Assembly (NCBI GenBank): GCA_000416085.1
Contig: KE356579.1
Location: forward strand, 2,216,993 to 2,233,118
Direction: 5' to 3'
DNA: 16,126 nt
DNA from: a halophilic archaeon J07HX64
GTDB taxonomy: Archaea; Halobacteriota; Halobacteria; Halobacteriales; Haloarculaceae
The position numbers were made by a program, and so were the translations under genes. How positions within the stretch are numbered: the stretch's first letter is position 1; each line of letters begins with the position of its first letter. Of this stretch, positions 618-4,277 are shown piece by piece. Under the pieces are notes generated by a model. It ran no database searches. It was not told the origin of the DNA and saw nothing but the letters and a program-made list of their open reading frames with translations.

Positions 618-1658
618 TCACCCGGTCTCGTAGGCATCGAGCACAGACTGGTCGCGTTCGAGTCTGGTCTCGACAGCGGGGCTGCGGGCCACGACATCGA
701 CCTCCTGTGCCCGCCAGTGTTGCCCCGTCTTGCCGTCCCAGACACCGTAGATGGTCACCGTCGGGAGCTTCAGAACACCGAACACGACCGCGAGCACGTA
801 CAGCGTGTCCCGTATCTCGTCCCAGGTGGCAGTCACCGCCCGCGGGGTTCCGACGGGGTACTCGACGTGCACCGCGGGCACCCCAACATCGGTTGCCCGG
901 TTGACGAACCCGCGGTCGTTAGTAAAGAGGACCACGTTCTTTCGAGCGTTCGCGGCCCACTCGCGGTATCCCTCGACGATCGCCTCGTCACCCTCGCCGG
1001 TTTCGACGACCTCCGAGCGACGGTTCGCCCGGAGCCGGCGGAACTCCGAGCTTCCGAGGAACCCGGCCCGCCGACTGCCGGCAGGCTGGTTTTCGAGGCG
1101 CTCGAACTCCGCTCCGAACGCCTCGGCAATCTGCTGTGTGTGTTGCTGTTTGAACCGCCAGTCGAGTTCGCTCTCGACCCCCGAGGAGAGTGCGTACCCG
1201 TTTATCGGCGGCCGTCGGTCGTCGTACTCGGGTCGCTGTGGGTCGATTCCGAGCACCGCCGGGATGCGCCAAGGAAAGATATTGGCGTCGATACCGGCGA
1301 AAACCGGCGCGTGTCCGGCCTCCAGGTCCGGGTAGGCGTGTCGCTCCAGAAACGAGTCGATCTCGTCCCTGTTGTGCACATCGACCAGACCGCCCGCGGT
1401 GAGTGCCTGACAGTACGTGTGGGCGTCGGGGAGGTCCTCGTAGGCGCGGGTGCCGTGGCTGAGGCGAACCTCGTCGCGCCGCGATTTGTACGTCTGTCTG
1501 CCGGCACGTATCCGGACAGTGCTCTCCTCGGCACTCTCCAGGTCGATTTCGAGTAGCGTCCCGATCTCCGCGCAGGGGTGTTCGACCGTGACGTGTTCGA
1601 CAGCCTCGGTCCAGAGCGCGTTCAGGACCGACATCAGCCCCTGCCGGGAGACGGTCAT
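618..1658 (-). CDS. PIN-domain nuclease, partner of the CARF-like protein
   Basis: The 346-residue protein has a PIN-like nuclease core at about residues 115-270. Its first strand ends in an Asp (FAGIDANIF, D124), Glu residues 162 and 164 follow in the next helix, an acidic pair sits in GDEAIVEGYREW (D224/E225), and FTNDRGF carries D248 before a final strand. This D..E..D..D layout is the Mg-binding site of PIN RNases. The N-terminal 110 residues are an extra domain I do not recognise. Residues 285-325 are hydrophobic then beta-rich and may form a small barrel or interface. The start ATG overlaps the stop of the upstream CARF-like gene (ATGA) and follows a full GGAGGTGATC ribosome binding site, so the two are translationally coupled. 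The inferred role is an RNA- or DNA-cleaving effector switched by its partner. Fold confidence is good; the exact family is unknown. Confidence 0.7.
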   Translation of the reverse strand: MTVSRQGLMSVLNALWTEAVEHVTVEHPCAEIGTLLEIDLESAEESTVRIRAGRQTYKSRRDEVRLSHGTRAYEDLPDAHTYCQALTAGGLVDVHNRDEIDSFLERHAYPDLEAGHAPVFAGIDANIFPWRIPAVLGIDPQRPEYDDRRPPINGYALSSGVESELDWRFKQQHTQQIAEAFGAEFERLENQPAGSRRAGFLGSSEFRRLRANRRSEVVETGEGDEAIVEGYREWAANARKNVVLFTNDRGFVNRATDVGVPAVHVEYPVGTPRAVTATWDEIRDTLYVLAVVFGVLKLPTVTIYGVWDGKTGQHWRAQEVDVVARSPAVETRLERDQSVLDAYETG

Positions 1659-2125
1659 CCGATCACCTCCGTGAAATCCATCAGGTCGACAGCGGTCCGT
1701 GGTACCTCCGGGTAGGGCCGGTCGTAGTATTTCGAGTCGTGGATGTAGAGGTAGTGGATGCGGTCGGCGTCGAACTGCCGGGCCGCCTGGAACGCCATCG
1801 CCGCCATGAACTTGCGCCCGGGTGTCAGGTCGACCGCGATCTCGCTGTCGGCTGGTGCATCCGTGACCGCATCGCGGTAGTATTCGGCGATGTCCTCGAA
1901 GTCACGCTCATCAGCGAGACGCTCCGTGTGAGTCGTCACGGACTCACCGTACGTATCGACGATGGCCTCGATGGTTGTCAGCGCCTCGTCTGCCGCCTCC
2001 TCGACAGACGGGTTCCTGACCAGGTGGACCGTTGTCGGGACGAACCCCTGTTCACACGCCGCCGTGACCGGGTCGACAACTGCCTGCACTGTCGGACTGG
2101 CTCTCGTCACCCACACACGTTCCAT
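1655..2125 (-). CDS. stand-alone CARF-like (Rossmann-fold ligand-sensing) protein
   Basis: This 156-residue alpha/beta protein shows the pattern of CRISPR-associated Rossmann fold (CARF) domains. The first strand, RVWVTRASPTV (residues 3-13), ends in a Ser-Pro loop. Later a strand runs into DLTPGRKFM (99-107), the counterpart of the D/N-x-T-x-G-x-K-x-M loop that binds cyclic oligoadenylate in CARF proteins, followed by a helix and the strand RIHYLYI. CARF domains normally sense nucleotide second messengers made by type III CRISPR Cas10 and control attached or partner nucleases. Here there is no fused effector; the next gene, overlapping by ATGA, is a PIN nuclease, which suggests a two-subunit switch. 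No cas gene is in the window. The ATG lies about 26 nt after a TATA-like box, in line with a leaderless transcript. It could also be a related Rossmann domain that binds another ligand. Confidence 0.6.
   Translation of the reverse strand: MERVWVTRASPTVQAVVDPVTAACEQGFVPTTVHLVRNPSVEEAADEALTTIEAIVDTYGESVTTHTERLADERDFEDIAEYYRDAVTDAPADSEIAVDLTPGRKFMAAMAFQAARQFDADRIHYLYIHDSKYYDRPYPEVPRTAVDLMDFTEVIG
1661..1670 (-). promoter_or_regulatory. strong ribosome binding site of the PIN gene
   Basis: On the minus strand GGAGGTGATC is fully complementary to the end of archaeal 16S rRNA. The GGAGG core ends 7 nt before the ATG at 1656-1658. It lies inside the last codons of the CARF-like gene. It stands out because most other genes here look leaderless, and it fixes the PIN start at an internal operon position. 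Confidence 0.85.
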
Positions 2126-2367: not shown

Positions 2368-2547
2368 ATGACCGAACTAACACTGGAGGTTGACGACGGG
2401 GACGTGTTCCTCATCAACGGTGAGGAAACCATCGAAAAAGAGGTCAAACCACAGGGCAACGGCGCTCACGTTATCGTCCCGAAACGCTGGACTGGCGCAC
2501 AGGTCAAAATCACGCGCATCTCAATCCCAGACTCCGACGACAAATGA
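2368..2547 (+). CDS. DUF2080 family transposon-associated small protein
   Basis: A 59-residue protein with the sequence pattern VNGEE-like (INGEETIEKEVKPQGNGAHVIVPK), then W and a basic VKITRI strand. This is typical of the small DUF2080 proteins encoded directly upstream of tnpB in haloarchaeal IS1341-type elements. The VKPQGNGAHVIVPKRW core resembles AbrB/SpoVT-type DNA-binding swapped-hairpin proteins, so a DNA-binding or regulatory role for the element is plausible but not shown. The ATG at 2368 is preferred over the GTG three codons earlier (2359) because it fits the family N-terminus. Its TGA overlaps the tnpB ATG (ATGA). Confidence 0.85.
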   Translation: MTELTLEVDDGDVFLINGEETIEKEVKPQGNGAHVIVPKRWTGAQVKITRISIPDSDDK

Positions 2548-4277
2548 CACAGCTCACCGAACAGTTCCACCTCCCGGATGACTCCCACGACGCGTGTGAC
2601 CGCCTCACCACGCTCGTCAAGAAACACAGTCGCCGATTGCTCGCTGAGGAATACTGGAGCGACGGGCATCTCGACGCCATCAGCGACCATACCGGGCAGT
2701 CCTACACATACATCCGAGACAACGACCGTGAGGACTTCGCAGACGTGACTGAATACGTCTACGACCGATTCAAGCGGTGCGTGTACCACCGCGTTACGCA
2801 CGTTCTCGACGCTCACACCGACGAGTTCCACGCCTTCCAGTTCGTGACTGACACTGTCGACGAGCGCAAGATTCGACGCATTGGCTGGAAACGACTTCGA
2901 ACACGACTGTATGATGAAGACACTCCGTACATCGAATGGCGCGTCTTGGAGTCTGTTGTCGACCAATTCAACGACTACTACGACCGGCACGGACGGTTCC
3001 CCGAAGCGTACACGGAGCTGGTCAAGACACCAGAGCCGAACGGAACGCTCCCCTACGCACCGGACAAAGGCGACTACCACATCCACGAACTCACAATCGA
3101 AGACAGTGACCTTCGATTCGTGCTGAACGCGCCGAACTCGCTCTCGCCGGGGAGCCACTATGACTGGACAAAACACGAACTTCGCCTCCCGATCCACCCC
3201 CGGTTTCAGCGGATGATCGACGCGGGAGACGCGAAAGCCCCAATACTCCACGCCTCTGAGCATGGCTACACGCTTGACGTGCCTGTGGCCGTCCCCAAGC
3301 AGGACACTGAGACTGTTGCCGACCGCGTTCTGGCAGTCGATCTCGGCGTGAAAAAACAGGCGACAGCGGTCGTGCTGGACAGCGGCGACGGCGGGACACA
3401 CGACCAACTGATGCCGCCACAGTTTCTCGACCATCCCGCGAAGAACAAACTGTTTCGTCTCAAGGCTGACGCCGAAGGCATCAATGACCGACTGGCAGAA
3501 CTCCGGCGACAGGGCAAAGACCACACAGACCGGTTCGACCACTTGGTCGGTGAGTTCCGCCAGACACGCCAGAAGGAACGCCGACTGCGCGAGCAGATCC
3601 AACACCACATAGCGAACCAGTTGGTGTGGTTAGCCGCCGAGAATAACTGTGAAACCATCATCTTCGAATCACTCGGCCAGATTGACTCTTCTGAGACGGA
3701 TGGTGCTATCGCGTGGTCGATCTCGTCGTGGGCACGAGGGGAACTGCTCGATCACGTCGAGTACAAGACCGGGTTGCTCGGAATCGAGGTTACGACAGTG
3801 AATCCGTGGGGAACGAGTCGATACTGTCCGCGCTGTGGTGAACGTGGCCGGACTGTGAACGCACCGAACGACCACGAACAGAATCGCCACGGTGGACACT
3901 TCCACTGTCGGACGTGTGGCTATGAGTGCGACCGTGACGTGGTTGGAGCGGTGAACGTCGGGCGGAAACATCTCTCAGAGAGCAAGATGGAGGAGGCGAA
4001 CCCTGCTGAGTACATCTCGACAGGGAATCACGCCAGTTTTCCATCATCCACGAGAGATGCCCGTTCTGCTGGCGTTCAGTCCGCGACCGACCAACAGGAA
4101 CCGGCGAGCGGTCGTCAGACCCACCTGTCTCAGTACTGTTCGGCGTCACTCACTGCGAAACGACGAGAGACAGATACGGGTGGACTGCATCAAAATCGCG
4201 GTAGCAACAAGACCCAGCAGTGGGTTAGTGGGAGTGTTACACGATACATCCTCGCCAGTACTACGGAATGTGGTTGA
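2544..4277 (+). CDS. tnpB: TnpB RNA-guided nuclease (IS1341-type), apparently intact
   Basis: At 577 residues this is longer than compact bacterial TnpB proteins of about 400, the extra being an N-terminal helical region and a C-terminal tail of about 100 residues. All nuclease features are present: RuvC-I VLAVDLG (D266), RuvC-II TIIFESLG (E375), a four-Cys zinc finger (C428, C431, C455, C458) and RuvC-III DRDVVGAVN (D465). TnpB cleaves DNA next to a short adjacent motif, guided by an RNA from the element's own right end. It helps retain the element after transposon excision. There is no tnpA, so any movement would need a transposase supplied elsewhere. The polar tail after residue 475 probably reflects overlap with the guide-RNA coding region. 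The gene is coupled to DUF2080 by ATGA. No frameshift or lost catalytic residue was seen. Confidence 0.95.
   Translation: MTQLTEQFHLPDDSHDACDRLTTLVKKHSRRLLAEEYWSDGHLDAISDHTGQSYTYIRDNDREDFADVTEYVYDRFKRCVYHRVTHVLDAHTDEFHAFQFVTDTVDERKIRRIGWKRLRTRLYDEDTPYIEWRVLESVVDQFNDYYDRHGRFPEAYTELVKTPEPNGTLPYAPDKGDYHIHELTIEDSDLRFVLNAPNSLSPGSHYDWTKHELRLPIHPRFQRMIDAGDAKAPILHASEHGYTLDVPVAVPKQDTETVADRVLAVDLGVKKQATAVVLDSGDGGTHDQLMPPQFLDHPAKNKLFRLKADAEGINDRLAELRRQGKDHTDRFDHLVGEFRQTRQKERRLREQIQHHIANQLVWLAAENNCETIIFESLGQIDSSETDGAIAWSISSWARGELLDHVEYKTGLLGIEVTTVNPWGTSRYCPRCGERGRTVNAPNDHEQNRHGGHFHCRTCGYECDRDVVGAVNVGRKHLSESKMEEANPAEYISTGNHASFPSSTRDARSAGVQSATDQQEPASGRQTHLSQYCSASLTAKRRETDTGGLHQNRGSNKTQQWVSGSVTRYILASTTECG

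Follow-up and report, generated by a model that had tools for sequence, protein, structure and literature searches.

Among the closest known relatives of the genes considered here is SiRe_0806 of Sulfolobus islandicus, a 429-amino-acid (aa) 'PIN domain-containing protein' deposited with cyclic tetra-adenylate (cA4) in PDB entries 9jxw and 9jxx, for which our literature search found no paper. SiRe_0806 is one chain, whereas in the 16,126-nucleotide (nt) stretch of the halophilic archaeon J07HX64 that we analyzed (contig KE356579.1, positions 2,216,993 to 2,233,118 of the forward strand; hereafter the window), a CARF-domain protein and a PIN-domain protein are encoded by two overlapping genes, and no Cas10 was detected in the haloarchaeal carriers of such pairs. 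We propose that the pair is probably the SiRe_0806-type CARF-PIN effector in two-gene form, that it is related to an ancillary effector of type III CRISPR signalling, and that in haloarchaea it occurs without Cas10. The PADLOC 2023 models already include the CARF half and, as PDLC01973, a CARF_PIN fusion, whereas the window proteins come from two genes. We take the PADLOC CARF_m1 families to trace to the CARF classification that Makarova et al. published in 2020. A literature search on SiRe_0806, CARF-PIN and haloarchaeal CARF, whose reach ended short of that classification, gave no report that we recognised as describing the haloarchaeal two-gene form. Makarova et al. 2014 (PMC4012209), as far as its text goes, linked two CARF families with PIN domains and counted 9 of 145 CARF-bearing genomes without either cas1 or cas10; the haloarchaeal pair is unmentioned in that text, and 'halo' is absent from its main text. 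CARF is likewise absent from the main text of a 2026 survey of archaeal immunity (PMC12988326).

In a fold search, the predicted model of the CARF protein aligned with residues 1-138 of SiRe_0806, and the predicted PIN model aligned over its full length (1-346) with residues 155-418 of the same protein (240 residues aligned). Since both models match a single SiRe_0806 chain, the pair resembles one effector cut in two. The structure flanking the PIN domain is the same as in SiRe_0806; the original prediction had treated the N-terminal domain and the C-terminus of the PIN protein as extra, and we rejected the idea that they are additions peculiar to the split form because both align with the single-chain protein. 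The CARF protein adopts the Rossmann-like CARF fold by fold comparison and was assigned to no unrelated Rossmann family, so that its predicted CARF identity, like the PIN identity of the second protein, held on both sequence profiles and folds. Both proteins matched PADLOC families, CARF_m1--CARF (PDLC01972; E=5.6e-51 for the CARF protein) and CARF_m1--CARF_PIN (PDLC01973), and the Pfam and NCBIfam CARF models matched the CARF protein below cut-off only. Against PDB sequences, the CARF family profile matched five entries at E<=0.01, namely four named CRISPR-associated proteins and SiRe_0806, and at E up to 1 methyltransferase and Cas3-HD chains appeared too. The CARF protein on its own matched SiRe_0806 at E=0.26, and the PIN profile matched no PDB sequence. 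Some of the CARF structures among the fold matches were identified provisionally, from their titles.

Direct reading of the sequence found both open reading frames (ORFs), their motifs, the stop/start overlap and the ribosome site of the PIN gene where they had been predicted. The GGAGGTG of that site lies 5 nt from the PIN ATG, and the two genes are translationally coupled. The CARF protein carries DLTPGRKFM where SiRe_0806 has DITPGRKYM. P102, G103 and R104 are each present in all 64 distinct CARF homologues, D99 in 63 and K105 in 58; D124, E164, D224 and D248 of the PIN protein are each present in 70 of 70 distinct homologues, both sets counting the window's own copy. This near-invariance argues that the CARF motif and the acidic residues are not there by chance. 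The PIN protein thus has an acidic active site as judged on its own relatives rather than residue by residue against SiRe_0806. Those four acidic residues had all been predicted, together with E162, which is a glutamate in just 3 of 70 homologues and is therefore unlikely to be catalytic. Ser10-Pro11 of the CARF protein come after strand 1 (residues 3-8 in the predicted model). The ring nucleases Sis0811, Sis0455 and SSO2081 (SSO1393 is presumably another) differ from the window CARF protein, which is instead coupled to a nuclease gene and scored 12 bits against the 125-bit cut-off of the NCBIfam Crn1 equivalog. On some plasmids, NCBI labels the CARF half 'ring nuclease' and the PIN half 'hypothetical'.

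The conservation survey that the original prediction had called for showed that the split arrangement recurs. PDLC01973 matched 58 of the 391 class genomes, spread over 34 of 86 genera, partial matches included (for example genomes G366, G371, G381, G125 and G221). From 54 of the 58 carriers we fetched 60 stretches, leaving out G125, G366, G371, G381 and a second place in G200. Two genes rather than one polypeptide are found in the window and in 55 loci with both ORFs, and the junction is 0-4 nt in 52 of these 55 (1-nt overlap in 31, 4-nt overlap in 17, abutting in 4); in one other locus the genes are 4 nt apart, and in two (L052, L080) the junction was unreadable, the listed ORF start being too far upstream. 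Because the same junction recurs in this way and genomes outside the class also have two separate genes, we rejected the possibility that the split is a frameshift artefact of poor assembly. Fusions are rare: L064 and L073 have single long ORFs, with one frame across both parts of the CARF_PIN model, L135 and L136 are single ORFs by likeness and tree, and a quick PIN tree groups the four in a single clade. Scanning named genomes turned up 37 loci. The titles of 36 are haloarchaeal, among them Haloferax gibbonsii, H. elongans and H. marinum; the remaining one, L122, is a haloarchaeal-type PIN gene with the end of a CARF gene on a metagenome-assembled contig titled Candidatus Sumerlaeota, which is probably mis-binned. 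Among 14 control genomes, Sulfolobus acidocaldarius alone matched PDLC01972 or PDLC01973.

The pair also appears to move between hosts. The PIN protein was matched in 12 plasmid records, over at least 80% of its length in 11, and the PIN proteins of L058, L060, L061, L063, L066 and L099 share 96.5-99.1% identity although they come from six genera in three families, a sign of recent transfer. Between the window pair and the copy in a genome of the same genus, identity is only 51% (PIN) and 44% (CARF). A viral origin was rejected: 50,697 phage records gave no match, and pattern scans using either alignment confirmed none in viral contigs.

The relation to type III CRISPR systems comes from outside the class, in a draw of 294 genomes of the phylum. 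The CARF_PIN model matched 27 non-class genomes, of which 10 have Cas10; both parts matched in 12, of which 7 have Cas10. Four non-class genomes (G494, G530, G613 and G617) have a Cas10 palm at a distance of some 5 kb from the pair, and their loci were read. At three of the four (L172, L173 and L174), the pair stands in one same-strand run with a 782-784-aa Cas10 ORF and with RAMP-type and Cas1-like ORFs, the last two judged by eye, and at L175 pair and Cas10 are on opposite strands. Profiles assigned the genes of the L173 run as Cas6, Cas10, Csm3, Cas5, Csm3-like proteins, CARF_m1 CARF, CARF_PIN, Csx1 (CARF-HEPN) and Cas1; genes of L172 and L174 other than Cas10 were judged by likeness to L173. 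At L172, L173 and L174 at least, the split genes are thus ancillary to type III, with the gene order and the two families of the haloarchaeal pair (families by profile for L173). These relatives lie in cas loci, with Cas10 in the same gene run and, in L173, RAMPs, Csx1 and Cas1 as well, whereas the window pair lies in none and the haloarchaeal pairs have no recurrent cas cluster. The profiles, the folds and these operons together support the predicted split, CARF-gated nuclease. In a quick tree, the haloarchaeal PIN proteins fall on one side of a branch from ten others (Shimodaira-Hasegawa-like approximate likelihood-ratio support, SH-aLRT, 98), all ten outgroup rows being flagged for long branches and odd residue make-up; the tree allows, short of proof, a single entry into haloarchaea followed by separation from Cas10.

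We looked for a source of the signal in the carriers. The Cas10 palm2 model (PF22335) matched 0 of the 58 haloarchaeal carriers, including the window genome (rated 72% complete; the other 57 are at least 90% complete), and found both positive controls, two haloarchaeal genomes with full Csm1. Haloferax volcanii, used as a control genome, gave no match to the palm model. The absence of cas genes from view, noted in the original prediction, extends to the window assembly, in which neither Csm1, the Cas10 palm nor Cas1 was found. Csm1 scored over its cut-off in 2 of the 391 class genomes, neither carrying the pair. Weaker Csm1 matches at E<=0.001 occurred in 254 of the 391; we rejected them as Cas10 because, among the matches listed, all but two strong ones cover about the first 150 of 753 positions, taken as the HD part. 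The Cas10-Cmr2 palm2 model was matched over its cut-off by an Escherichia coli control genome. mCpol was found in none of the 58 carriers, from a searched set that held no positive-control genome. The SMODS cyclase was matched in 12 of 58 carriers at E<=0.001, and neither SMODS nor mCpol, the marks of cyclic-oligonucleotide-based signalling (CBASS) and mCpol systems, was found in the window genome. Cas1 was found in 9 of 30 carriers and 10 of 30 non-carriers (30 of the 58 and 30 of the 333 were compared), so a link with CRISPR adaptation was rejected. In haloarchaea, then, the pair looks like a type III ancillary effector minus its known signal source.

If the pair works as SiRe_0806 and other CARF effectors suggest by analogy, the CARF protein would dimerise and the dimer would bind an adenine-oligonucleotide-like ligand, cA4 or a close relative, via the S/T10 and DxTPGRK loops; the DxTPGRK[FY]M motif common to the pair and SiRe_0806 favours a cA4-like ligand. 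The CARF protein may pair with the PIN protein as the two parts are arranged within the single SiRe_0806 chain, and we infer such a physical complex. Ligand binding would then turn on metal-dependent RNA cleavage by D124/E164/D224/D248, and growth arrest or abortive infection could follow. The lack of Cas10 in haloarchaeal carriers suggests that the ligand has another origin. It is possible, and we put it forward tentatively, that haloarchaea operate a CARF-gated nuclease pathway independent of both CRISPR and Cas10, in which an unrecognised synthase or a ligand other than a cyclic oligoadenylate (cOA) signals to a mobile two-gene effector residing in defence islands. If so, nucleotide second-messenger immunity would have a new branch that diverged from type III CRISPR.

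Several observations weigh against the proposal of a two-gene SiRe_0806-type effector without Cas10. The family profile matched the SiRe_0806 sequence weakly (E=0.0058, no single stretch below 0.01), so that the case rests on folds. K105 is replaced by arginine in 6 of the 64 CARF homologues. SMODS scores over its cut-off in 6 of the 58 carriers, where it is another possible source of a cyclic nucleotide. Outside the class the link to type III is partial, and Cas10-free carriage is not confined to haloarchaea. The window pair itself lies among genes that look by eye like housekeeping genes, with a TnpB gene, outside any defence island.

Three other explanations were considered. The pair could be an ordinary type III effector that receives cOA in trans. 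The source would be a Cas10 encoded on a plasmid that the assemblies lack, a co-resident element or an incoming mobile element. The type III operons of related archaea, the DxTPGRK motif common to a protein solved with cA4, and the adjoining Csa3, another CARF protein, in Haloferax alexandrinus and at L069 (= L116) and L076 (= L112) all fit this account, which we nevertheless consider unlikely given the zero count of Cas10 palms in carriers of which 57 are near-complete, the restriction of Csm1 over cut-off to two non-carriers, and a Cas1 frequency no higher in the carriers tested than in non-carriers. An improbable reading, in our judgement, is a toxin-antitoxin-like pair, in which the upstream CARF protein keeps the PIN nuclease inactive until CARF loss or ligand occupancy releases it. 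PIN nucleases are common toxins, the pair is carried on plasmids, and gene order, tight overlap and coupling are kept in 52 of 55 loci, all of which would suit such a pair. VapBC systems, by comparison, join a small PIN toxin to a DNA-binding antitoxin, whereas here the PIN protein has 346 aa and its upstream partner is a CARF domain alone.

There is also a small chance that the CARF protein senses a different molecule, such as a derivative of ADP-ribose, the 3' ends of RNA or a nucleotide that neighbouring enzymes produce. Of 60 loci, 16 (in 13 genera) have an ADP-ribosylglycohydrolase near the pair, and in six it lies directly upstream on the same strand, with a gap of at most 3 nt; the text of PMC9650030 describes a CARF domain, that of RtcR, acting in the regulation of RNA repair. 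These six loci are not independent, since the pairs of five are nearly identical and that of L055 is closely similar; moreover, the matching ADP-ribosylglycohydrolase gene of the window genome is in three pieces, and the CARF motif is shared with SiRe_0806, whose structure was solved with cA4. We retain the SiRe_0806-type two-gene effector as the preferred explanation. Finding the ligand of CARF proteins in organisms without Cas10 has been deemed worthwhile for Csa3 homologues, in the text of PMC8844856. The pair offers a clean test case, as it is found in 58 of 391 haloarchaeal genomes, occurs in species of Haloferax, a genus that has laboratory strains, is small and coupled, has intact acidic residues and has a homologue solved with cA4; the identity of the ligand would expose either a new synthase or a CRISPR effector re-used for another signal.

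The haloarchaeal pair often lies in defence islands or on plasmids. Neighbours were clustered within about 8 kb on either side at 60 loci, with a home-made choice of ORFs and kinship handled by genus counts only. The commonest was a UvrD helicase (23 loci, 15 genera), with a PD-(D/E)XK end in the representative tested, followed, besides the ADP-ribosylglycohydrolase, by a HEAT-repeat protein (15 loci, 13 genera), a VWA protein (15 loci, 12 genera), an AAA/DUF4143 protein (14 loci, 11 genera) and a second PD-(D/E)XK protein (9 loci, 7 genera). No recurrent cas gene cluster was found among the 60 loci, Csa3 in a few excepted. Immediately upstream of the pair at L069, L076 and L169 is a Csa3-type (CARF-HTH) gene; these loci belong to Haloferax gibbonsii, a Haloarculaceae archaeon and Haloferax alexandrinus (L169); no Cas10 palm was found in the two genomes of these loci that were tested (G112, G372). 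Four of the 12 plasmid records were read for neighbours: two show the recurrent haloarchaeal set, one of them with DrmE as well, one has Csa3, BREX-like ATPase and TGT genes by the pair, and one has HNH, repair-exonuclease and PD-(D/E)XK genes.

The VWA, HEAT-repeat, ADP-ribosylglycohydrolase and AAA-DUF4143 genes recur as a set, often by the pair (L055, L061, L063, L066, L082 and others; L167:6604-11175) and also without it, and are possibly a separate unnamed defence system. VWA matches above 790 bits, a cut picked after viewing the list, occur in 27 genomes, 18 of them carriers, an association that ignores kinship; any VWA match occurs in 68 of 391. None of the recurrent neighbours lies beside the window pair; a VWA gene of this kind is about 324 kb away in the window genome, with the three-piece ADP-ribosylglycohydrolase and a short piece of a HEAT protein. 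A second set beside the pair consists of a Cas4-like PD-(D/E)XK nuclease and a UvrD helicase (L043, L047, L057, L068, L075 and L085), with an uncharacterised protein of about 700 aa in five of the six (absent in L057).

Features of the window (nt positions within the 16,126-nt stretch) and the basis of each assignment
Feature	Position	Strand	Basis
CARF-domain protein, 156 aa (sensor half)	1655-2125	minus	ORF read from sequence
PIN-domain protein, 346 aa (nuclease half)	618-1658	minus	ORF read from sequence
ATGA, 4-nt overlap of CARF stop and PIN start	1655-1658	minus	direct sequence reading
Shine-Dalgarno-like GGAGGTGATC ahead of PIN start, within CARF gene	1661-1670	minus	direct sequence reading
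CARF motif DLTPGRKFM, residues 99-107	1805-1831	minus	sequence, PDB profile comparison, homologue alignment
PIN fold core, about residues 118-270	849-1307	minus	stand-alone PIN fold matches fall within residues 101-277
PIN acidic residues D124; E164; D224; D248	1287-1289; 1167-1169; 987-989; 915-917	minus	70/70 homologues
TATA-like TTATAG, about 25-30 nt upstream of CARF start	2150-2155	minus	sequence only
Cupin gene, listed GTG start overlaps PIN stop	241-621	minus	Pfam
TnpB-like gene with Cas12f1-like TNB domain; upstream 59-aa ORF overlapping by 4 nt	2368-4277	plus	Pfam, sequence
Three overlapping ORFs, 763, 524 and 257 aa	11292-15768	minus	ORF list

The TATA-like hexamer upstream of the CARF gene is a possible promoter, from which a leaderless transcript might start. 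Among the neighbours of the window pair, Pfam identified cupin, TnpB and alpha/beta hydrolase genes. The cupin gene was rejected as a third member, since no cupin cluster was seen, by eye, among the neighbours shared by at least three genera. The region of the TnpB-like gene resembles what we take to be a haloarchaeal element of the IS200/IS605 type. The three overlapping ORFs look by eye like one long sensor/HTH (helix-turn-helix) regulator gene split by frameshifts; together with the 72% completeness of the assembly, this broken gene hints at assembly frameshift errors or at a decaying gene.
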